Virus record (IMG/VR): IMGVR_UViG_3300042446_001440
Location: 1 to 64,000 of that record
Origin: a virus
Reading direction: 5' to 3' (one strand)
DNA length: 64,000 nucleotides
The notes beneath the pieces are model-generated. The model was not told where the DNA came from and ran no database searches. It worked only from the letters and a program-made list of their open reading frames with translations. The first letter of the stretch is position 1. The number at the start of each line of letters is the position of its first letter. Below are positions 3,870-63,694 of this stretch, one piece after another. The position numbers and the translations under genes were made by a program.

Positions 3870-4112
3870 ATGTTAAAAATAGTAGAAATAGCTAAAGCAT
3901 GGATTGCGGCTGCAAATCCAACACCCGAACAAAAAGCACTAGCTGAAGAGCGTGCTGCTATATGTGGGGAATGTCCCCATAGAAACAATAGTTGGTATGT
4001 TAAAGATAATAAAGACATATGGACTTGCGGATTATGTGGATGCCCACTTAGCAAGAAATTGTTTACCCCTGCTGGTCCCGATGCATGTCCCGATAAAAGA
4101 TGGAAGAAATAA
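3870..4112 (+). CDS. Small cysteine-rich (zinc-ribbon-like) protein
   Basis: An 80-residue protein starting on the base after the previous stop. The second half holds CGECPHR (residues 31-37), CGLCGCP (near 52-58) and a final DACPDKRW, so six Cys in total can form one or two metal sites. The function is unknown; such phage proteins are usually annotated as zinc-finger hypotheticals. Its last 13 nt overlap the next gene, a homing endonuclease, which suggests that element inserted at its 3' end. Confidence 0.7.
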   Translation: MLKIVEIAKAWIAAANPTPEQKALAEERAAICGECPHRNNSWYVKDNKDIWTCGLCGCPLSKKLFTPAGPDACPDKRWKK

Positions 4113-4681
4113 CTAAAATATATTTAATTGAAAATATAGAACCTGGTACTAATAAAGTGTACATTGGTAAAACTATAAATTCTAGAAAAGGTTCTCATAA
4201 AATAACATACGGATCTCAAATTACTTATAGTTATATAGATGAAATTAATTCATTATCTCATAAAGATTGGGAACCACTTGAATCTTACTGGATACAGCAA
4301 TTTACAGCTTGGGGATTTGATGTAGTAAATAAACGCAAAGTTGGTGGAAGTGGCCCTGAATTTCATAAGGAAGAAACTAAAATTAATATGCGTAAACCTA
4401 AATCTACTACTGAAAAAATGCGCAAACCCAAATCAGAAGAACATAAAGCTAATATGCGCAAACCTAAATCAGAAGAACATATAGCTGCTATGATTGCTGG
4501 ACGGACTGGAGTGAAACATAAATCACATAAACCCATGCCAGAATGGTATGGTAAGTTCATTAGCAATATAAATAAAGGTAGAGTATCACCTAATAAAGGT
4601 AAAACAAAATCAGAAGAAGCCAAACGAGCTATATCTGAAAAATTAAAAGGTCGCGTATCTCCAAATAAAAAAATAAAATAA
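4100..4681 (+). CDS. GIY-YIG homing endonuclease with NUMOD3 repeats
   Basis: 193 residues. The N-terminus has the GIY-YIG nuclease pattern (IYLIEN ... VYIGKT, residues 7-24). The middle carries short repeats built on MRKPKSEEHK (residues about 95-130) and further SPNKGK units, which are NUMOD3-type DNA-binding motifs. It is a free-standing selfish endonuclease that cuts intron-less or element-less alleles. It overlaps the preceding zinc-ribbon gene by 13 nt and interrupts the run of tail genes. The DNA target cannot be determined here. Confidence 0.85.
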   Translation: MEEITKIYLIENIEPGTNKVYIGKTINSRKGSHKITYGSQITYSYIDEINSLSHKDWEPLESYWIQQFTAWGFDVVNKRKVGGSGPEFHKEETKINMRKPKSTTEKMRKPKSEEHKANMRKPKSEEHIAAMIAGRTGVKHKSHKPMPEWYGKFISNINKGRVSPNKGKTKSEEAKRAISEKLKGRVSPNKKIK

Positions 4682-6797: not shown

Positions 6798-7286
6798 ATG
6801 GCAGTATTAAATCCAAATGAAATCATGTTTACAGCGTTTGAACCTAAGGTTGCAAATCGCTTTATCATGTATATAGACGGTATTCCCGCATACTTAATTA
6901 AGAAAGCTAATGCTCCTGGATTTGATGCCGGTGAGATCACATTAGATCACATCAACGTTTACCGTAAAATTAAGGGTAAAGTTAAATGGAACGACATAAC
7001 AATGGAATTATATGATCCAATCACTCCAAGTGGTGCACAATCTGTAATGGAATGGGCTCGTTTGGCACATGAATCAGTAACAGGTCGTGATGGTTATTCT
7101 GATTTCTACAAGAAAGATCTTACATTAAACGTTTTAGGACCAGTAGGCGATATCGTTGGAGAGTGGATTATCAAAGGAGCTTATGTTAAAACAGCTACAT
7201 TTGGTGATTATGATTGGGCTTCTGGTGATGCAGCTATTTCACTTAGTGTAACAGTTGCTATGGATTATTGCGTATTGAATTTCTAG
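6798..7286 (+). CDS. Tail tube protein (gp19-like)
   Basis: 162 residues, the usual length for T4 gp19-type tube proteins. It begins MAVLNPNEIMFTAFEPK and has a beta-sandwich pattern with the typical KWNDITMELYDP strand and the closing SLSVTVAMDYCVL strand. Hexameric rings of this protein stack inside the sheath and line the DNA channel. It follows the sheath gene, as in T4, and is bracketed by its own promoter-like motif and a strong terminator, so it is likely an independent high-level transcript. Confidence 0.92.
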   Translation: MAVLNPNEIMFTAFEPKVANRFIMYIDGIPAYLIKKANAPGFDAGEITLDHINVYRKIKGKVKWNDITMELYDPITPSGAQSVMEWARLAHESVTGRDGYSDFYKKDLTLNVLGPVGDIVGEWIIKGAYVKTATFGDYDWASGDAAISLSVTVAMDYCVLNF

Positions 7287-7378: not shown

Positions 7379-8137
7379 ATGGCTGAATTGAATTTACCAA
7401 CAGAAATCGTTACATTACCATCAAAAGGTTTATTGTATCCTAAAGAATCACCACTTTCCAAAGGCGAAATTGAAATGAAATATATGACGGCTAAGGAAGA
7501 AGATATCCTTACCAACAGCAATTTCATTCGTCAAGGTACAGTAGTAGATAAATTATTACAAGCACTAATCGTTACAAAAATCAACTACGATGAATTATTA
7601 ATCGGCGATAAAAATGCTATACTTATCGCAGCTCGCATACTTGGATATGGTGCTGATTATTCGTTTAAATACACTAACGAACGCGGACAAGAAACCGAAG
7701 TAAGTGTTGACTTATCAACATTAGATGAAAAACCAATAGACGAATCTTTATTTACAGCTGGTGTAAATGATTTTACTTTTAGTTTACCTAAATCAAGTAA
7801 TACTATTACGTTTAAGTTATTAACACATGGTGATGAAAAGAAAATTGAAGCTGAAATTAAAGGATTACAAAAAATTAATCCAAACAGTTCATCCGATGTA
7901 ACAACTCGTATGAAATATATGATTACATCTATTAATGGTGATAGAGAAGCAAAAGCAGTACGCGATTTTGTAGATAATTACCTATTAGCACCAGACGCTA
8001 GAGCATTACGCGAATATTATAGCAAAGTACAACCAGATATTAACCTTAAGTTTATGCCTGACGATGAAAATTATACAGGGGAGGGTATAGCGATTCCAAT
8101 TTCGCTTAACTTTTTTTGGCCTGACTCCGGAGTATAG
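7379..8137 (+). CDS. gp26-like baseplate / tail-assembly protein
   Basis: 252 residues of the T4 baseplate (gp26) family: LPSKGLLYP near residues 14-22, then IEMKYMTAKEEDIL and a VDKLLQALI segment, which are family hallmarks. In T4, gp26 acts in baseplate hub assembly. The last codons run over a TTTTTTT tract (8111-8117), after which a second open frame continues without an obvious start. A fraction of ribosomes probably shift frame to make a roughly 335-residue extended form. The unshifted product ends FFWPDSGV. Confidence 0.88.
   Translation: MAELNLPTEIVTLPSKGLLYPKESPLSKGEIEMKYMTAKEEDILTNSNFIRQGTVVDKLLQALIVTKINYDELLIGDKNAILIAARILGYGADYSFKYTNERGQETEVSVDLSTLDEKPIDESLFTAGVNDFTFSLPKSSNTITFKLLTHGDEKKIEAEIKGLQKINPNSSSDVTTRMKYMITSINGDREAKAVRDFVDNYLLAPDARALREYYSKVQPDINLKFMPDDENYTGEGIAIPISLNFFWPDSGV
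8111..8117 (+). promoter_or_regulatory. Putative +1 / -2 translational frameshift site (T7 run)
   Basis: The gp26-like frame reads AAC TTT TTT TGG here. Moving +1 (or -2) on the run of seven T gives TTT GGC CTG ACT CCG, which enters the downstream open frame. A -1 shift would hit TGA within four codons. The site is inferred from frame geometry. Confidence 0.6.
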
Positions 8138-8387
8138 ACCACATCTATTCAAACAAATACATGAAATTGTATTTCATGGTGGTGGAGGTTATGATTGGGA
8201 AACCGTTTATAATATGCCACTATGGTTGCGTCGTACTACATTTAATCTGTTAAATGAACATTTCACTAAACAGAATGAAGATGCTGAAAAGCAACAAAAT
8301 ATGCTAAAAAATAATAAATCTAGCAAAGATATAGCACGTCCCAACATTGCTAATCCAACATATACCGCGAAGGTCCCACGAAAGTAG
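8112..8387 (+). CDS. Downstream frame of the gp26-like gene (probable frameshift extension)
   Basis: This is an open frame of about 91 codons in the +1 frame relative to the gp26-like gene. It contains RPHLFKQIHEIVFHG, a YDWETVYNMPLWLRR motif and a Lys/Asn-rich end (KVPRK). The pattern of an HG motif, then a VY-MP-LR box, resembles short proteins found beside gp26 in T4-like phages. The frame is closed upstream by TAG at 8088-8090 and has no ATG, GTG or TTG before the conserved region. The first ATG (8214) would cut the domain in half. Translation through the T7 run is therefore the best explanation. An atypical start (for example CTG at 8121) is the alternative. Confidence 0.7.
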   Translation, partial: FFGLTPEYRPHLFKQIHEIVFHGGGGYDWETVYNMPLWLRRTTFNLLNEHFTKQNEDAEKQQNMLKNNKSSKDIARPNIANPTYTAKVPRK

Positions 8388-8424: not shown

Positions 8425-10692
8425 ATGCCCGATCAATTAACACCCGAAGAAGAACAGAAACGACTTGATATCATCCAAAAACAGGGTGTTGCTGTTAAAG
8501 ACTTAGCTAGTACATACGAAAAATTAGAAAAAACTTTAGGAAGATTAACAGCAGAAGAAAAGGAGTCGTTAGATGTTGCAAAAGAATTACAAAGAGCATC
8601 AGTTAATCTTGAAAAAAGTGTACAAAATAGACTAGACAGATCAGGTTCAATTAAAAGTTTAGAAACATCTTTAAATCAATTAATAAAAGATCAAACACAA
8701 ACATTAGCTACTCAAGCAAGTGTTACTGCTAAATTAGATAGTGATAGAGCTAAAGCAAATGCTTTATCTGCACAAGCCGCTGAAGCTGAAATTCGACAAA
8801 AAACCTCATTAAATACATTATTAGGAAAAACAGATGCAGCAATAAGACGAAGAAATAAAGCCGAAGATGAGGGTAATTCTAATCTTGTTGAACAACTAGA
8901 AACAGAAATTAGAGAAAATCAAAATATAATAGATCAAAACCAAAAAGATTTAAAATTAATAATTCAAAAAAAAGATGCACAAGAGGCCTTAGTTAAGCAA
9001 ATTGATCTAGCTAAGCAAGCTCATGAAAATTTAATAGAACAACAAAAAGAAGAAATAGCTTTAGCAAAACAGGAATTAAAAATAAGAAATGGTATTGCTA
9101 TGTTGGATTATGTAAATGAAAAATTCAGCACAAAGAAGATAGCTGAAATGTTTACTTTAGTAGGTCTATTTAAATTAATACTAGATTCAGCTTTACGTTT
9201 CAATGAAGTATCAGTAAAAACAAGTAAAAGTTTAGGGTATGGAGCCGATAATGCTGATAGAGTAACATCTAATTTAGTAGAAATAGCTCAAAACTCAAAT
9301 AATATAAATGTTACCCTAAAAAGTGCAGGAGAGGCAATGAGCCAACTGAATGAGGCAACAGGAGGAGTAGCAGAATATTCAGCAGATGTCTTAAAGACAC
9401 AAATAATGTTAACTAAGCAGTTAGGATTATCTGGAGAGGAAGCAGCCGGTATTTATAAATTCTCAGTATTAACGGGTAAATCATCGGAAAAAGTTAATGA
9501 CGAGATGGTAGCTGCTTTTGTTAATACTAGAAATGCAGTTAAAGGGTCAGCAGATTTTAAAACAACAATGGCCGCCGCTTCTAAAGTGTCAGGTCAATTA
9601 TCAGCAAACTTACAAAATAATCCCGGATTAATAACTAAAGCAGTTGTACAAGCACAAGCATTAGGTACTTCATTAGAACAAACAGCTGCTCAAGGTGCTT
9701 CTCTTTTAAATTTTGAATCATCTATTAGTAAAGAATTAGATGCTGAATTATTAACTGGTAAGCAGTTAAATCTTGAAAAAGCAAGAGCAGCTGCATTATC
9801 GGGTGACCAAATAACATTAGCAGAAGAATTAAATAAGAATGTAGGTACGTTATCTGACTACCAAAAAATGAATGTACTACAGCAAAATGCATTGGCAGAT
9901 GCTGTAGGTTTAACTGCAGATCAATTATCAGATCAATTAAGAAAACAAAAAATAGCAACAGAACAAGGTAAATCATTAGCACAAATTACTAAAGAAGAAG
10001 CACTTGAAGCTGAAAATAGGCAAGCAATACAAGATAAATTTAATGCCGCTATAGAAAAATTACAAGACTTTATTGGGAATTTAGTAGCAGGTCCTCTTGG
10101 AAAAATGTTAGAAATAATAAGTAATATATTACCTCTTGTAACAAGTATAGGAGCAGTATTCTTAGCAATTACAGCGGCTCAAAAGTTAGGAGCAATGTAT
10201 GAATCTCTTAAATTAGGATTTTTAGTAGCGGGAGAAGCAGCACTTGCTGGACAATTAACAACACAAGGAGCTCTTAACATAGCAAAAGGAAAAGATTTAG
10301 CAACATCAATAGGTATAGCAGCCGCATGGGTAGTTGCTAATCCTTTTAAAGCAATATTAGGATTAGCTTTAGCCGCTGGAGTAGGAGCATTAATATATAG
10401 CCAAATGGATGATGGTATGATAGGTCCAGGTGGAGAAACAATAGTATCTGGTCCAAAAGGTTCTATTCAATTAAATAAAGAGGATTCAATAGTAGCAGGT
10501 ACTGATTTATTTGGTGGAAATAAAGGCGGCGAATCAATGCAAGGCCCATCAATAGATCTAACACCAATGATAGTAGCAATAAACGCAGTTAAAACATCAA
10601 TAGATCGCCTATACGGTAAAGATTCATCAGTTCACATGGATGGTAAAAAAGTAGGTACCACATTAGCTCAAGGTTCACATAAAGTAGCATAA
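8425..10692 (+). CDS. Tape-measure-like tail protein
   Basis: 755 residues. Residues 1-230 are a long charged coiled coil. The middle is helical. Residues about 550-665 hold several hydrophobic helices (for example ILPLVTSIGAVFLAI and ILGLALAAGVGALIY). The C-terminus has a GMIGPGGETIVSGPKG segment, then a short domain ending SHKVA. Coiled coil plus central membrane-active helices is the usual design of tail tape measure proteins, which set tail length and help DNA cross the inner membrane. The order sheath, tube, gp26-like, this gene fits. A baseplate hub role (gp29-like) is an alternative name for the same job. Confidence 0.78.
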   Translation: MPDQLTPEEEQKRLDIIQKQGVAVKDLASTYEKLEKTLGRLTAEEKESLDVAKELQRASVNLEKSVQNRLDRSGSIKSLETSLNQLIKDQTQTLATQASVTAKLDSDRAKANALSAQAAEAEIRQKTSLNTLLGKTDAAIRRRNKAEDEGNSNLVEQLETEIRENQNIIDQNQKDLKLIIQKKDAQEALVKQIDLAKQAHENLIEQQKEEIALAKQELKIRNGIAMLDYVNEKFSTKKIAEMFTLVGLFKLILDSALRFNEVSVKTSKSLGYGADNADRVTSNLVEIAQNSNNINVTLKSAGEAMSQLNEATGGVAEYSADVLKTQIMLTKQLGLSGEEAAGIYKFSVLTGKSSEKVNDEMVAAFVNTRNAVKGSADFKTTMAAASKVSGQLSANLQNNPGLITKAVVQAQALGTSLEQTAAQGASLLNFESSISKELDAELLTGKQLNLEKARAAALSGDQITLAEELNKNVGTLSDYQKMNVLQQNALADAVGLTADQLSDQLRKQKIATEQGKSLAQITKEEALEAENRQAIQDKFNAAIEKLQDFIGNLVAGPLGKMLEIISNILPLVTSIGAVFLAITAAQKLGAMYESLKLGFLVAGEAALAGQLTTQGALNIAKGKDLATSIGIAAAWVVANPFKAILGLALAAGVGALIYSQMDDGMIGPGGETIVSGPKGSIQLNKEDSIVAGTDLFGGNKGGESMQGPSIDLTPMIVAINAVKTSIDRLYGKDSSVHMDGKKVGTTLAQGSHKVA

Positions 10693-13775: not shown

Positions 13776-16700
13776 ATGTCTATATTCAAAGGAACATTCA
13801 ATAAAAGTATTAAAGATCAGTTAGATGTACGCCAAAAAGCAATAAACGACCGTACACCTCAGAATCTATCATATATGAATTCACGCAATGCGTGGATTAG
13901 GTTATCATCCTCTGTAAATACATTCACTGGAGGTATTACTGATAAAACAACATTAGAAGAATTAAATGATGATGGAAAATATGATAACAAATTAGCTAAA
14001 CAATACGTTTTACAAGGTGGAATCTTAAATGATAATAAATTACGAGCAGGATTAGGTGATTTTTCAAATGCCTACAGCAATAAAGCATCAGATGGAACAG
14101 CGTATCGCTTAGGTATTCGCCCTATGCCTGGTATTACTAACATAGATGTTAAGTCTAAAGGTGCATATGGCTCACTACGAGAAGCAACAATAAACTTTCA
14201 ATGTTGGGATATTAAACAATTAGAAGAATTAGAATTACTCTATATGCGCCCTGGATATAGTGTACTATTAGAATGGGGATGGACTCCATTTTTAGATAAT
14301 AGTAATAAGTATAATACTCGTGTAGAATATACAGATATTATAGATACAGCTCATAATAAAGAAGAATTATTTAGATTACAATATGCTAAGTCAGCAGATG
14401 GTAATTATGTGAATGAAAAGGGTGAAAAACAAACAACAAAAGGATACCAAGGCAACTACGATGCTATGTATGGTACTATTAAAAACTATGGTTGGACTGC
14501 TAGAATGGATGGTGGGTATGATTGTCATACCTCAATCATATCTATGGGAGAAATCATGGAATCCCTAAAAATAAATTATTCTCCTCTAGATAATAAAACT
14601 CAAATTTCAACTAAAGGATTAATAACCAAAAATGTAGTTTCAGATCCCCCAGCTGCTATATCTACTACTCTTATGCCTTACCTATCTGAAGCATATAACC
14701 AGAATATATTAGCAGGATTATTTTATGAATTATGGGAAATAGGACAACAACTTGGAGGAACTACAGGGTTTACTCAATTCTCAGATAAAACAGGTAACTC
14801 ATATAGTTTAACAGATACTTCTAAAACTACAGGAAATAAATATGAACTTTTTCGTTTATCTCTTAATATAAAAGGAGGTGCAAGTGAAGCTGATAATAGA
14901 GGAAATATAGGAAAAACAGATGAACAAATATACATTACTTTAGAATCCTTAGTTAATGTACTTAACAATTATGTTCTATTACAAGACACTGATAAAAAAA
15001 CACCAATATCATCATTATCAGTATTGGAATCAGATATTACTAATGTTGGGGTAACACCTGATAACGTCACAGGAGAAGGATATTTACTAGCATTAGCTCA
15101 CCCATTACAGATATCAGTTGACCCAACAGTATGTCTTATTAAAAACCAACTATGGGCAGATGGAATTGATATTAAATTATTGACTCCGGGAGCTGTAGAT
15201 CCTAATATAGGAGATGTAGTGATAAAATACGGTAAACAACTAAATAATGATTATGATGCAGCTTGGTGGAAAGAATTAGCTAAAAGAATAAATGCTGCTG
15301 ATACAAATGCAAACTCCGATAGTATACAAAAATTAATAGATTATGTTCAAGAATCAGTAGGAACCGGACCCTCTAGTACAGAAGAATTAAAAGAAATACA
15401 AAGAAGATTTATAGAGATTAAAGCTAATCCTAAAATTGAACCGGGTAACTATGTAGTGAGTACTTTAGCTGCTGGAATTATACCATTTACAATAACATTA
15501 GCAGAATATGATAGTTTTTATGACTTATTAGATGAAGGATTAAACTCAGCAGTAGATATAGGAAGAGCTATAGGAAGTAGAGATAAACAAGGAAAAAAGG
15601 TAGTAGGATCTGATTTTGCTATTGAAGCTGCATCAAAAGATCCTAAAGTAGTTACTGATAATCAATTAGCCGCTAAATCAAAACAACTACAAAATCAAAA
15701 AGATAAAGGATCAGCAGGTACTAAAATTTTACAACATCTTAAATTACCATATTTTACAAATAATAAATGGCAGGATGAATTAGGTATAATAGGAAATATA
15801 TATGTTAATCTAAATATGTTATATAATCTTATTGTAAGTAAAGATTTAGCAGCTCAAGATCCTAAAGAAAAAAACGATGTTGCCTTATATGATTTTATAA
15901 AAAATATTTTAAAGAAAATTTCTTCTGCAACGGGTGATGTAAATAATTTAGAACTATTTATAGATCCTGTAGATGGTATAGCTAGAATAATTGATATAAA
16001 TTATGCTGATAGAAAAGATAATCCAAATTCAAAGTATGAAAATATAGTTGAAATTCAAGTTCAAAATTTAAATTCAGTAGTAAGATCATACAAAATAGAA
16101 TCACAAATATTTCCAGACCAAACTGCAACAATAGCTATTGGTTCACAAGTAAAAGGAGGAGCATTAGGACAAGATAATAATACATTAGTAGATTTTAATA
16201 GAGGAATAATAGATAGAATTGTACCTAGAAAAGATACTCCTACTTCACCTCCAACTACTGACACCCCTCAATCTAATCTTACAACGTTATTAGAATCTTT
16301 AGGAGTAATATTTACTTTCTTTACAGATCTAGATCCGGAAGCTCATAAAACTGGTTTATTAAATGATGGAGATTATGATGTAGATGAAGCAGGTAAATAC
16401 CAAAACTCATTAAAAGATTTAATAAATTTCTTTAAAGCAATAAGTACATCCCGTACAAAAAATAAAGCAATTATACCTACTAAAGTATCATTAGTAATGG
16501 ATGGTATAGGAGGAATAGTAATAGGAAATCTATTTAGACTCCCTTCAGATGTATTACCTAAAGGGTATAGAGGAAGAGAAAATGAAGGAGGAAATAAAAT
16601 AGGATATGCCGTTACTGGTTTAGGACATTCAATACAAAATAACGATTGGATAACTAATGTAGATGCTCAATTTATGATACTAGATGATCCAAAAAAAGGA

Positions 16701-17261
16701 ATTGATGGTATTGATATTGATTTTGGTAATATAACAATAGTTACTACTGGTCAAGAAGCTAGTTTATCTCCCTCCAATCCAGGTATATCTACTCCAACAG
16801 GGGGAACAACAAAGATAATTAATGGCGTAGCAAGAAAAAATGGAGACATAGAGGATTTACTAGTACCAATGAGATCAGATCTATATATCAGACATTGGAG
16901 CTCAGTATGTCAAAGTGATAAAAAACGTATAAGACTTCAAGCAGCAGCAATGCAAAATTTAGAAAAAATGCTAACAGACGCTTATACAGCGGGAATATAT
17001 ATTAAAGTAAATTCATCATACAGAACATATGAGGACCAAGTAAGAATAAAAAATCTGGCTGCTGGAATACCAGCTGCTGAACCTGGTAATTCAAATCATG
17101 GATTTGGATTAGCTGTAGATTTAGCAAATTCGGATGGTGGTAGAATTAATCCAATATCTACTCCAAAAGAATGGAAATGGATTCAAGATAATAAAGCAAA
17201 ATATGGCTTTGAAAATATCAATACCACCACAGAATCACATCATTATAATTATATAAAATAA
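13776..17261 (+). CDS. Giant baseplate protein with C-terminal M15/VanY-type peptidase
   Basis: 1161 residues. The first 1000 residues are structural, with hub-like beta segments around residues 110-260 and no recognised enzyme motif. Residues about 1035-1161 form a D-Ala-D-Ala carboxypeptidase (M15, VanY) domain: SYRTYEDQ near 1081, the SNHGFGLAVD zinc motif (H1108, D1115) and ESHH (E1153, H1156 as ExxH). This would cleave peptide cross-links of peptidoglycan from the tip of the tail, taking the place of T4 gp5 lysozyme. The ATG at 13776 was chosen; an out-of-frame ATG at 13771 is ignored. The last base overlaps the next gene start. Confidence 0.82.
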   Translation: MSIFKGTFNKSIKDQLDVRQKAINDRTPQNLSYMNSRNAWIRLSSSVNTFTGGITDKTTLEELNDDGKYDNKLAKQYVLQGGILNDNKLRAGLGDFSNAYSNKASDGTAYRLGIRPMPGITNIDVKSKGAYGSLREATINFQCWDIKQLEELELLYMRPGYSVLLEWGWTPFLDNSNKYNTRVEYTDIIDTAHNKEELFRLQYAKSADGNYVNEKGEKQTTKGYQGNYDAMYGTIKNYGWTARMDGGYDCHTSIISMGEIMESLKINYSPLDNKTQISTKGLITKNVVSDPPAAISTTLMPYLSEAYNQNILAGLFYELWEIGQQLGGTTGFTQFSDKTGNSYSLTDTSKTTGNKYELFRLSLNIKGGASEADNRGNIGKTDEQIYITLESLVNVLNNYVLLQDTDKKTPISSLSVLESDITNVGVTPDNVTGEGYLLALAHPLQISVDPTVCLIKNQLWADGIDIKLLTPGAVDPNIGDVVIKYGKQLNNDYDAAWWKELAKRINAADTNANSDSIQKLIDYVQESVGTGPSSTEELKEIQRRFIEIKANPKIEPGNYVVSTLAAGIIPFTITLAEYDSFYDLLDEGLNSAVDIGRAIGSRDKQGKKVVGSDFAIEAASKDPKVVTDNQLAAKSKQLQNQKDKGSAGTKILQHLKLPYFTNNKWQDELGIIGNIYVNLNMLYNLIVSKDLAAQDPKEKNDVALYDFIKNILKKISSATGDVNNLELFIDPVDGIARIIDINYADRKDNPNSKYENIVEIQVQNLNSVVRSYKIESQIFPDQTATIAIGSQVKGGALGQDNNTLVDFNRGIIDRIVPRKDTPTSPPTTDTPQSNLTTLLESLGVIFTFFTDLDPEAHKTGLLNDGDYDVDEAGKYQNSLKDLINFFKAISTSRTKNKAIIPTKVSLVMDGIGGIVIGNLFRLPSDVLPKGYRGRENEGGNKIGYAVTGLGHSIQNNDWITNVDAQFMILDDPKKGIDGIDIDFGNITIVTTGQEASLSPSNPGISTPTGGTTKIINGVARKNGDIEDLLVPMRSDLYIRHWSSVCQSDKKRIRLQAAAMQNLEKMLTDAYTAGIYIKVNSSYRTYEDQVRIKNLAAGIPAAEPGNSNHGFGLAVDLANSDGGRINPISTPKEWKWIQDNKAKYGFENINTTTESHHYNYIK

Positions 17262-43553: not shown

Positions 43554-45185
43554 ATGAGTAAAATAATCAGTTTCGACCGCGAAGCAAAACAAAGGCTTCA
43601 AGCAGGTATCGACAAAGTAAACAAAGCAGTATCCGTTACAATGGGTCCCTTCGGACGTAACGTATTAATTGAAAAAGAACATGGCCAAGTAGCATCCACT
43701 AAAGATGGAGTTACCGTTTCAAGAACCATTACATTGGAAGATCCAATTGAAAACATGGCGGCTACAGTAATTAAACAAGCAGCAGAGAAAACAGTAAGTG
43801 CAGCAGGTGATGGAACAACAACATCAACCGTATTAGCTCATTCAATCGCTTCACAAGCTCTAGATGCTACATCATACCCATCAACAAACGCAACTCAAGT
43901 AAAGCGTGGTATCGAACAAGCAGTTAAAGTAGTAGTAGCGGAATTAAAGAAAATGTCTCGCCCTATCGAAAGCGAAGATCAAATTAAACAAATCGCTACA
44001 TTATCAGCTAATGGTGATGCTGAAATAGGTGAATTAGTAGCTACAGCATTAGATAAAGTAGGAAGAGACGGAGTCGTTACAGTAGAGGAATCGCGTACTG
44101 GGGAAACTAGTTTAGAAGTAGTAGAAGGTATGCAGTTTGATAGAGGTTACAAGTCACACTACATGGTAACAGACAACAACACAATGTCTGCTAACCTAGT
44201 AGATGCATTAGTATTACTAGTGGATGGTAGAATTTCAGCAGTGAAAGATCTATTACCGATTTTAGAATCAGTATCTAATGATAATAAATCATTATTGATT
44301 ATAGCTGAAGATATTGATGGTGAAGCACTAGCAACATTGATTGTAAATAAGATGAGAGGTATTTTGAAGGTAGCGGCTGTTAAAGCACCTGACTTTGGAG
44401 AACGTCGCTTATTAATCTTAGAAGACATTGCAACCATCACAGGTGGAACAGTAGTATCACCTCAAAAGGGAATGAAATTAGATAAATTCAATAAAACCTG
44501 GTTTGGATCTGCACGTACAATTACTGTAGGTAAGGATACAACTACAATTATTGATGGTAAAGGAGATACAACAGCAATCGAAACACGTGTATTAGAATTA
44601 AAAGCACAAATCGACAAATCAAGTTCACCATATGAAATTGAGAAACTACAAGAGCGCCTAGCTAAAATGATTGGTGGAGTAGCTATTATCAATGTAGGAG
44701 GAGGAACGGATATTGAGATGAAGGAAAAGAAAGATCGCCTTGATGATGCTCTACAAGCAACACAAGCAGCATTAGATGAAGGTATATTACCTGGAGCTGG
44801 AGTAGCATTATTGAATGCTAGAAAAGCACTTAAAGCAGATCTAGATGGTAAAAATGATATATCTAAAGGAGTAGCAATAGTGTTTGCAGCTTGTGGAAAA
44901 CCATTTAAACAAATTCTAGAAAACGCAGGTGAAGATGCTAGTGAATGGTTAATGTCCTTAAACATACATAGCGAAAACCTAGATCTAGTACCTGATATTG
45001 CAAAAGGAGCAGCAGTAGATGCCTTCGAAGCAGGAATCATTGATCCTACTAAAGTAGTAAGATCAGCATTAGAGAATGCAGCTGCAGCAGCAGTAACATT
45101 ACTGATGACAGAATGTGTAATCCATGATAAACCTGATACTAAGAAAAAGGTAGAAGACTTTGGGATGGCAGAGATGGGAATGTAA
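43554..45185 (+). CDS. groEL: Chaperonin GroEL
   Basis: 543 residues, full length. Nucleotide-binding motifs are intact: [24 protein letters not shown] (D86) and [12 protein letters not shown]. The apical domain is complete ([13 protein letters not shown]). The C-terminal tail is short, ending MAEMGM instead of the long GGM repeats of many hosts. Most T4-like phages bring only a co-chaperonin and use host GroEL, so a full pair suggests that some phage protein (perhaps the capsid) needs a dedicated machine. Confidence 0.95.
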
Positions 45186-62803: not shown

Positions 62804-62876
62804 TCCAGAATAGCTCAGTTGGTAGAGCAGCTGATTTGTAATCAGCAGGTCGCAAGTTCGACTCTTGTTTCTGGAT
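62804..62876 (+). tRNA. tRNA-Thr (anticodon TGT)
   Basis: A canonical cloverleaf: acceptor TCCAGAA/TTCTGGA, D-stem GCTC/GAGC, anticodon stem GCTGA/TCAGC with loop TTTGTAA, T-loop TTCGACT. It reads ACA (and perhaps other ACN). No CCA is encoded. Confidence 0.95.
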
Positions 62877-62877
62877 C

Positions 62878-62978
62878 AAGGATGAGAGAATACAAAGTAG
62901 CAGCACCCGTCATCATGTGTAACTCGTGGTGCCAACTACCAGTAACTTTGTTTGGTTGGCCAACCGAACCTCATCTTT
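62878..62978 (+). ncRNA. Cloverleaf-like structured RNA candidate
   Basis: A 9-bp closing stem (AAGGATGAG 62878-62886 with CTCATCTTT 62970-62978, one wobble) encloses GTAG/CTAC with GCACC/GGTGC (62897-62939) and a T-arm-like hairpin GTTTGG/CCGAAC (62950-62969, loop TTGGCCAA) directly abutting the closing stem. The topology is tRNA-like but it has no anticodon arm. The 5' end touches the tRNA-Thr 3' end. Confidence 0.45.
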
Positions 62979-62981
62979 ATT

Positions 62982-63068
62982 GGAAGAGTAGCCAAGCGGT
63001 TGACGGCACCTGACTTGAAATCAGACATACGGGAAACTGTATCGTGGGTTCGAATCCTACCTCTTCCG
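62982..63068 (+). tRNA. tRNA-Ser (anticodon TGA)
   Basis: Acceptor GGAAGAG/CTCTTCC, D-arm GCC/GGC, anticodon loop CTTGAAA, a long variable arm (ACGGGAAACTGTATCGT region) and T-loop TTCGAAT. It reads UCA. One mismatch lies at the base of the anticodon stem. Confidence 0.93.
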
Positions 63069-63073
63069 CAGCT

Positions 63074-63144
63074 TGGGTTATGGTGTAATGGCAACACTAC
63101 AGATTTTGATTCTGTCGTTTTAGGTTCGAGTCCTGGTAACCCAA
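63074..63144 (+). tRNA. tRNA-Gln (anticodon TTG)
   Basis: Acceptor TGGGTTA/TAACCCA is perfect, D-stem GTG/CAC, anticodon stem ACAGA/TCTGT with loop TTTTGAT, T-loop TTCGAGT. It reads CAA. It starts 5 nt after tRNA-Ser. Confidence 0.93.
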
Positions 63145-63146
63145 CA

Positions 63147-63280
63147 AAAAGAACTAGCAAACAAATGACACGCACGGCAGCCTGGAATGTGTGCACACTG
63201 AACAGGCAATGCGAACGAAGAGGATGGGATACCTCACTGTGCGTAGGTTAGATTCAACGCCCGTCGCTAGTTCTTTTTTT
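63147..63280 (+). ncRNA. Structured RNA candidate with its own terminator-like end
   Basis: A 12-bp closing stem (GAACTAGC 63151-63158 with GCTAGTTC 63266-63273, extended by AAAA/TTTT) runs into a T-run. Inside, ACGCAC (63170-63175) pairs GTGCGT (63239-63244), enclosing two hairpins, GCCTG/CAGGC and GAGG/CCTC. It is a multi-branched fold and not a known tRNA. It may double as the terminator of the tRNA transcript. Confidence 0.55.
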
Positions 63281-63284
63281 ACAT

Positions 63285-63444
63285 TGTAGGATGGTGAAAT
63301 GCTCTAGAGCTTGGAATACACAGCGCCCCGTCTAGGCGCCGCGGATCACGAAATAGATAAATGATAATGGGTTGACCACACGCTTGCAAGCACAAATGTC
63401 ATTTATTGAATCGCCGTATGGAGGTTCAAATCCTTCTCCTACAG
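63285..63444 (+). tRNA. Atypical tRNA-like gene with very long variable region
   Basis: Acceptor TGTAGGA/TCCTACA and T-arm GGAGG-TTCAAAT-CCTTC are intact. The D-loop holds GCTCTAGAGC, an extra small hairpin. The anticodon-like arm GCGCC/GGCGC has loop CCGTCTA without U33. About 80 nt between it and the T-arm form an ATAAATGA/TCATTTAT helix (63357-63364 with 63399-63406). It is 160 nt in all and too short for a group I intron. Confidence 0.5.
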
Positions 63445-63445
63445 C

Positions 63446-63590
63446 TAAAGAGGATAAAATGTGTAGTAACCTCAAGGAAGCTAGCTCCTACTACACTCTT
63501 TAAGTGTTACCCAAAGGGTAAACGCACTGGTATGAGACTTGTTCTCTCAAACTCGATACCTAAAGTTGAGCTGTCAATTGAAAGATTGAC
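63446..63590 (+). ncRNA. Chain of hairpins between tRNA-like genes
   Basis: Four successive helices: TAAAGA/TCTTTA plus GTGTAGTA/TACTACAC (63446-63502); AGTG/CACT with TTACCC/GGGTAA (63503-63528); GGTAT/ATACC with GAGA/TCTC (63529-63560); GTCAAT/ATTGAC (63573-63590). No gene is visible. The density of perfect helices is far above chance for AT-rich DNA. Confidence 0.45.
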
Positions 63591-63595
63591 TTAAT

Positions 63596-63681
63596 GCCCC
63601 GGTGGTGGAACTGGTAGACACGCAGGACTTAAAATCCTGTTCGCTGTAAGGCGAGTGACGGTTCGATTCCGTTCTAGGGCA
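63596..63681 (+). tRNA. tRNA-Leu (anticodon TAA)
   Basis: Acceptor GCCCCGG with CTAGGGC (one C-A mismatch), D-arm with GGTAGACAC, anticodon stem CAGGA/TCCTG with loop CTTAAAA, a class II variable arm and T-loop TTCGATT. It reads UUA, the dominant Leu codon in this AT-rich genome. Confidence 0.93.
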
Positions 63682-63694
63682 CATAATTATAATC

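Follow-up and report, generated by a model that had tools for sequence, protein, structure and literature searches.

A predicted +1 ribosomal frameshift and a conserved upstream hairpin in a gp26-family phage tail assembly chaperone gene

Results

Organization of the chaperone locus

The window analyzed here, a stretch of 64,000 nucleotides, is part of an 80,169-base IMG/VR virus record from a phage with a contractile tail. On its + strand, ORF A (7379–8137; 252 residues, ending ...SLNFFWPDSGV*) encodes the zero-frame product, which we assign as the short form (TAC-N) of a tail assembly chaperone of the T4 gp26 family; its stop codon at 8135–8137 was read from the sequence. Overlapping ORF A in the +1 frame is a conserved domain of 90 residues (8118–8387, +; GLTPEYR...VYNMPLWLRR...PRK*), which has three predicted helices, ends at a TAG at 8385–8387, and would form the C-domain of a long form (TAC-NC). 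The +1 frame is shut upstream by a TAG at 8088–8090 (+), which overlaps the 3′ arm of an RNA hairpin described below, and no ATG, GTG or TTG was found in this frame of the window between 8090 and the domain. The putative slippery site UUU UUU U (TTTTTTT, 8111–8117, +) is preceded by an AAC codon (8108–8110, +), and ORF A stops 20 nt after it; this is the frame geometry set out in the initial annotation, and the sequence matches it. If TTTT is read as a single phenylalanine step, the two frames join into one protein of 335 residues, ...SLNFFGLTPEYRPHLFKQIHEIVFHG...VYNMPLWLRR.... The sequence TTTTTTTGG is found once on the + strand of the window, and the hairpin-plus-slip pattern has one occurrence there, with an expectation of 0.

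The gene order is tail sheath, tail tube, A and its +1 domain, and tape measure, as in other tail assembly chaperone loci. The tail tube gene lies upstream (6798–7286, +; phrog_4542, E 9.3e-21), and directly downstream is a gene of tape-measure type (8425–10692, +; 755 aa), which was assigned by position and has no match in the profile libraries. Flavobacterium phage immuto has a matching gene order, in which the equivalent downstream gene is annotated as the tail tape measure. Elsewhere in the window, a predicted protein inside the tail region (4100–4681) carries repeated KPKSEEHKANMR motifs, which we take to resemble the NUMOD repeats of homing endonucleases. A large baseplate/hub-type protein (13776–17261) has a C-terminal VanY D-alanyl-D-alanine carboxypeptidase domain (E 9e-13) and is likely a cell-wall enzyme on the tail, and a phage-encoded chaperonin of the Cpn60/TCP-1 family, 543 aa in length, is found at 43554–45185 (E 4e-65).

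ORF A matches PF12322 with an E-value of 5.9e-7 and 29.8 bits, above the curated cut-off of 24.5, and phrog_150 with an E-value of 1.1e-11. ORF A and the +1 domain were modelled separately. The AlphaFold2 model of ORF A has a pLDDT of 90, and its BFVD matches are T4-like hub and hub-assembly proteins of the baseplate, including that of phage SP-15 (best E 5.8e-19); a Foldseek search of solved structures with this model returned no significant similarity, with HK97 gp13 (2ob9), a tail chaperone of solved structure, at a non-significant rank 41 (E 4.0, TM 0.47 by target length). The model of the +1 extension is a three-helix domain with a pLDDT of 80, for which no fold match was found in the PDB. 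Its similarity to phrog_634, of T4 gp51 type, is weak: the window domain gives an E-value of 0.0058, and matches at E<0.1 are seen for 16 of 56 such domains. In hhalign comparisons with T4 gp51 the joined profile gave an E-value of 0.0019 but a probability of 14%, while the C-domain alone gave no match. In an alignment of chaperone C-domains (A9), 14 of 56 match Pfam DUF6760 (best E 6e-4), a family that occurs in contractile injection system clusters and that may share a C-domain with the tail assembly chaperones. Given the position of the gene between those for the tube and the tape measure, and the gp26-family fold match, we consider it very probably a tail assembly chaperone of the lambda G/GT type that uses a +1 shift; the chaperone role is suggested by sequence and analogy.

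Conservation of the frame arrangement

In viral contigs, 292 relatives of the +1 domain were found. All of the distinct close relatives that have both parts carry the domain at the +1 offset with an intact T-run (108/108), and both the T-run and CTTTTTTTGGCC are invariant in the 105 that were aligned. The T-run and the +1 geometry are therefore kept at the junction, which supports the programmed frameshift that the initial annotation had proposed for a gp26-like gene; it lacked the -1 branches and the GGAGG hairpin that we describe here. Variation across the +1 frame by codon position is 0.24/0.15/0.41, with the third position the most variable, which is the signature of a protein-coding sequence. 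Because all 108 relatives share the offset and third positions in the +1 frame vary most, chance is excluded, and the arrangement of the frames is confirmed to be well beyond it. The TAR at 8088–8090 is kept in nearly all close relatives, probably in part because these bases sit in the hairpin stem.

In a wider set, drawn from a more distant search and from reference phages, the domain lies at +1 in 181 distinct relatives and at -1 in 19; RM378 (+1) and S-SM2 (-1) were assigned by eye, and the class of L185, L197, L207, L215 and L226 by similarity of the +1-domain peptide. The +1 and -1 sites alike always fall at the terminal FF/FL motif of the chaperone. The +1 members include phages of Flavobacterium, Microcystis, Rhodothermus, Bacillus, Listeria and Streptococcus, and the -1 members include Agrobacterium phage Atu_ph07, PA5oct, PBECO4, RaK2, KVP40, S-SM2, Phosso, Vibrio phage 2.275.O, XacN1, RAS14 and LR756511-like contigs. 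A tree from which the slip region was left out requires three changes of shift direction among 103 labelled sequences, an exact count that is unsure because of long branches, and 79 of the +1 sequences group together with an SH-aLRT support of 92 by a quick method.

The slip site and the direction of the shift

Among the 181 +1 sequences the site reads TTT TTT TGG in 166 and TTT TTT TAC in four. TTT CTT TGG, TTC TTT TGG and TTC CTT TGG occur twice each, and TTC TTT CGT, TTT TTT CAC, TTT TTT CCC, TTT TTT AGT (LIS04) and TTT CTA TTC (LR756508) once each. Re-pairing of the P-site tRNA after a +1 step (UUU-U, CUU-U or UUU-C) is possible in all but the last two: in LIS04 (UUU-A) it is imperfect, and a -2 step fits better, while in LR756508 (CUA-U) a +1 shift fits only if the first phenylalanine codon slips. 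Slippage of the P-site tRNA by +1 would thus fit nearly all of the relatives with a broken T-run. Neither UGG nor UAC, the codons in the A site, is a stop or a codon known for slow decoding, and we count this against the +1 explanation.

The bases around the site appear to be constrained according to the direction of the shift. The second slip codon is never TTC (phenylalanine codons there outside the window clade are TTT in 66/66, P 7e-11), and the preceding codon has T as its last base in 4/181 of the +1 sequences versus 19/19 of the -1 sequences (Fisher 5e-23). The sequences counted are distinct yet related to one another, such that the P values overstate independence; the pattern nevertheless recurs across widely separated groups. 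In the -1 class, the base before the phenylalanine pair is T in 19/19, completing T TTT TTY. Where the preceding codon is for asparagine, it is AAC in 100 and AAT in 2, against an upstream usage of 694 AAC to 1612 AAT; with C as the third base of AAC, no perfect -1 heptamer can form. The +1 phages thus avoid the -1 heptamer, and the -1 phages keep T TTT TTY.

An upstream hairpin with a GGAGG loop

A candidate stimulatory RNA hairpin of 6 bp with an 8-nt loop (UUAUAC-AGGGGAGG-GUAUAG), in which GGAGG occupies 8080–8084, lies 5′ of the slip site at 8071–8090 (+). It is the sole consensus structure given by RNAalifold, with 97.6% of cells paired across 97 distinct rows; two-sided changes are seen in four of the six pairs (72 cells), a level reached in 0/500 shuffles. 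The pair at -36/-25 alternates between A-U and G-C, with about ten joint changes on the tree, and well-supported branches provide four independent pairs, all as predicted, which are too few for a significant sign test. RNAalifold found no conserved stem-loop or pseudoknot 3′ of the slip site. A pairing of CAGGGGAGG with the U-run is the minimum free energy fold of the single sequence and was rejected, as the alignment favors the local hairpin.

The loop is made up of two codons, GGG (8% usage) and GAG (15%), which are rare yet nearly fixed in the window clade about 30 nt upstream of the slip. Synonymous shuffling predicts GGAGG in 2.1 relatives of the window clade, yet 109/110 have it. Among the other +1 sequences 44/71 have it against an expectation of 9.5, and among the -1 sequences 0/19 against an expectation of 0.0; since none would be expected there, absence from the -1 class alone is uninformative. 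Control regions contained no GGAGG. In each of the two +1 sets, hairpins around GGAGG are in excess of those in synonymous shuffles, modestly so outside the window clade, where many +1 relatives have a similar GGAGG-loop hairpin 20–30 nt 5′ of the slip. On this sequence evidence, the hairpin is kept by selection in the window clade, and we consider it likely that it stimulates the frameshift.

The position of GGAGG is not that of an ordinary Shine-Dalgarno (SD) stimulator. It lies 20–29 nt upstream of the P site, starting at -31 relative to the first U in the window clade and mostly at -22, -28, -31 or -34 in the others, while known SD stimulators are spaced at 3–10 nt. GGAGG precedes 0/74 gene starts in the window, whose genes are SD-scarce, and an SD-like tetramer is found at 0/99 A-gene starts in the clade. 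In Bacteroidota, genes are SD-scarce and the anti-SD is masked (PMC10783764). A bS21 gene, which could unmask the anti-SD, was not found among the ten small window ORFs scanned. In SD-scarce hosts, probably Bacteroidota, the hairpin would not be expected to act through ordinary SD pairing; candidate routes are a pause caused by GGAGG, refolding behind the ribosome, and a protein-binding site. Internal initiation from GGAGG was considered and rejected on the inference that no conserved start codon lies at the right distance.

Proposed mechanism and alternative explanations

We propose that most ribosomes would terminate at 8135 and release the short chaperone. At UUU UUU UGG, a minority would shift as the P-site tRNA-Phe moves by +1 from UUU at 8114–8116 to UUU at 8115–8117; GGC would then be decoded next, to give the long form of 335 residues with its C-terminal helical domain. 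On the model of lambda gpG/gpGT, we would expect the short form to coat the tape measure, and the C-domain to bring in subunits of the tail tube. Slippage in cells, and its efficiency, are inferred. The window contains four tRNA genes at 62804–63682 (Thr-TGT, Ser-TGA, Gln-TTG and Leu-TAA); with none for phenylalanine or tryptophan among them, host tRNAs would serve at the slip site, unless further tRNA genes lie outside the window.

These data are best explained by a programmed +1 ribosomal frameshift in a tail chaperone of the gp26 family, to which we assign a probability of about 0.88. The initial annotation had left a +1 or a -2 shift open. In a -2 shift, as in phage Mu, the P-site tRNA-Phe would move back two bases and the fused protein would gain one phenylalanine, with an expected junction of ...LNFFFGLT... 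(SLNFFFGLTPEYR) in place of the ...LNFFGLT... (SLNFFGLTPEYR) of a +1 shift. The U7 run of the window permits -2 re-pairing, which would be perfect, as well as +1, and LIS04 (TTT TTT AGT) suits -2 better. The relatives with a broken T-run point to +1, since in TTC TTT TGG, TTC CTT TGG and TTC TTT CGT a -2 shift would have to re-pair on UCU or UCC while a +1 shift works, and TTT CTT TGG carries the same CUU-U slip as E. coli RF2. These relatives favor the +1 part of the earlier proposal over its -2 part, which we now regard as unlikely, and also over transcriptional slippage and sequencing error. The last of these, named in the initial annotation as a way in which the frameshift could prove false, left no error signature: the run recurs in many independent assemblies, and homologues with a broken run retain the geometry.

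Transcriptional slippage on the T7 run would yield mRNAs with 6 or 9 U and thereby fuse the frames, and the run of seven T is conserved in most members. The +1 geometry is nevertheless kept with runs of 3–4 T, namely TTTCTTTGG in immuto and TTCTTTTGG in L186 and L218, which would offer the polymerase little substrate for slippage, and the constraint reaches to the preceding base and the upstream hairpin; this mechanism appears very improbable. We give slighter weight still to a reading without a frameshift, in which the downstream domain would be an independent gene with a start codon of its own, and we reject it for most of the window clade. Small separate ORFs are annotated in some phages, such as KVP40 and S-SM2, and in T4 genes 26 and 51 are distinct, but KVP40 and S-SM2 also have T TTT TTC at the matching place. 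The +1 frame is closed just 5′ of the domain, and 87/110 members of the window clade have no ATG, GTG or TTG from the stop in this frame to residue 12 of the domain, the start codon for a second protein that the initial annotation had weighed. A separate gene would also leave the slip site in the overlap unconstrained.

Discussion

Taken together, these observations assign a predicted frameshift to many jumbo phages and relatives of T4; its position in the homologous gene is fixed, and its direction varies by branch. They provide a natural experiment on what determines +1 or -1, in which a one-base rule, in the preceding codon, and an RNA element are directly testable. We tentatively suggest, as a possibility somewhat short of even, that a new cis-element, the GGAGG-loop hairpin about 20–30 nt upstream, stimulates the +1 shift by a route other than ordinary SD pairing and sets its direction together with the base before the slip, such that a single chaperone family would have changed between +1 and -1 shifts with the site itself staying in place. 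The annotation of such genomes can also be corrected, as it omits about 90 residues of the long form or assigns them to small hypothetical genes. Such genes are annotated within the C-domain in immuto (L159, 6139–6249), Mel-JY01 (L160, 5989–6225) and SP-15 (L162, 2255–2374); judged by sequence, these ORFs represent the end that the frameshift adds to the chaperone.

The literature already describes T4-like chaperones that have -1 sites or that are encoded by separate short and long genes, and the upstream hairpin is the most original part of this work. A 2016 review describes G/GT frameshifting as conserved in long-tailed phages except T4 and lists the shifts as mostly -1, with Mu at -2 (PMC5009743). 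Vladimirov et al. (2022) is cited for some T4-like phages that have a short copy and a fused long copy instead of frameshifting (PMC10885494, on PRFect) and for poly-T -1 signals in T4-like chaperone genes (PMC12846349). We found no +1 case in the gp26 family, and no such hairpin, in the literature searched, and Vladimirov et al. may mention a +1 site.

A close parallel is lambda gpG/gpGT (PMC5009743), which shares the position between tube and tape measure and the pairing of a short with a frameshift-extended form; lambda shifts by -1, however, while the window chaperone would shift by +1, and no sequence similarity was found. T4 gp26 belongs to the same family by profile and predicted fold and also ends in ...EFFELL, but genes 26 and 51 of T4 are separate and divergently placed, unlike the predicted fusion in the window. 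The -1 chaperones of T4-like and jumbo phages (T TTT TTC) have a homologous first ORF, the same position at the FF motif and a U-rich slip; they differ in the opposite direction of the shift, in another rule for the preceding base, and in being without the GGAGG element. The -2 chaperone of phage Mu fuses the same relative frame, but the broken-run relatives here disallow -2. The +1 direction is shared with E. coli RF2 (prfB), Listeria phage PSA and the chaperone of haloarchaeal HSTV-2, for which +1 is very likely (PMC5009743). The CUU U of immuto, L213 and L236 is the RF2 slip itself. RF2 has an SD-like element about 3 nt upstream of the slip codon and a stop codon in the A site, whereas here GGAGG sits in a hairpin loop 20–29 nt upstream and the A site holds UGG, and the window site falls outside the RF2 type of SD-stimulated +1 frameshift.
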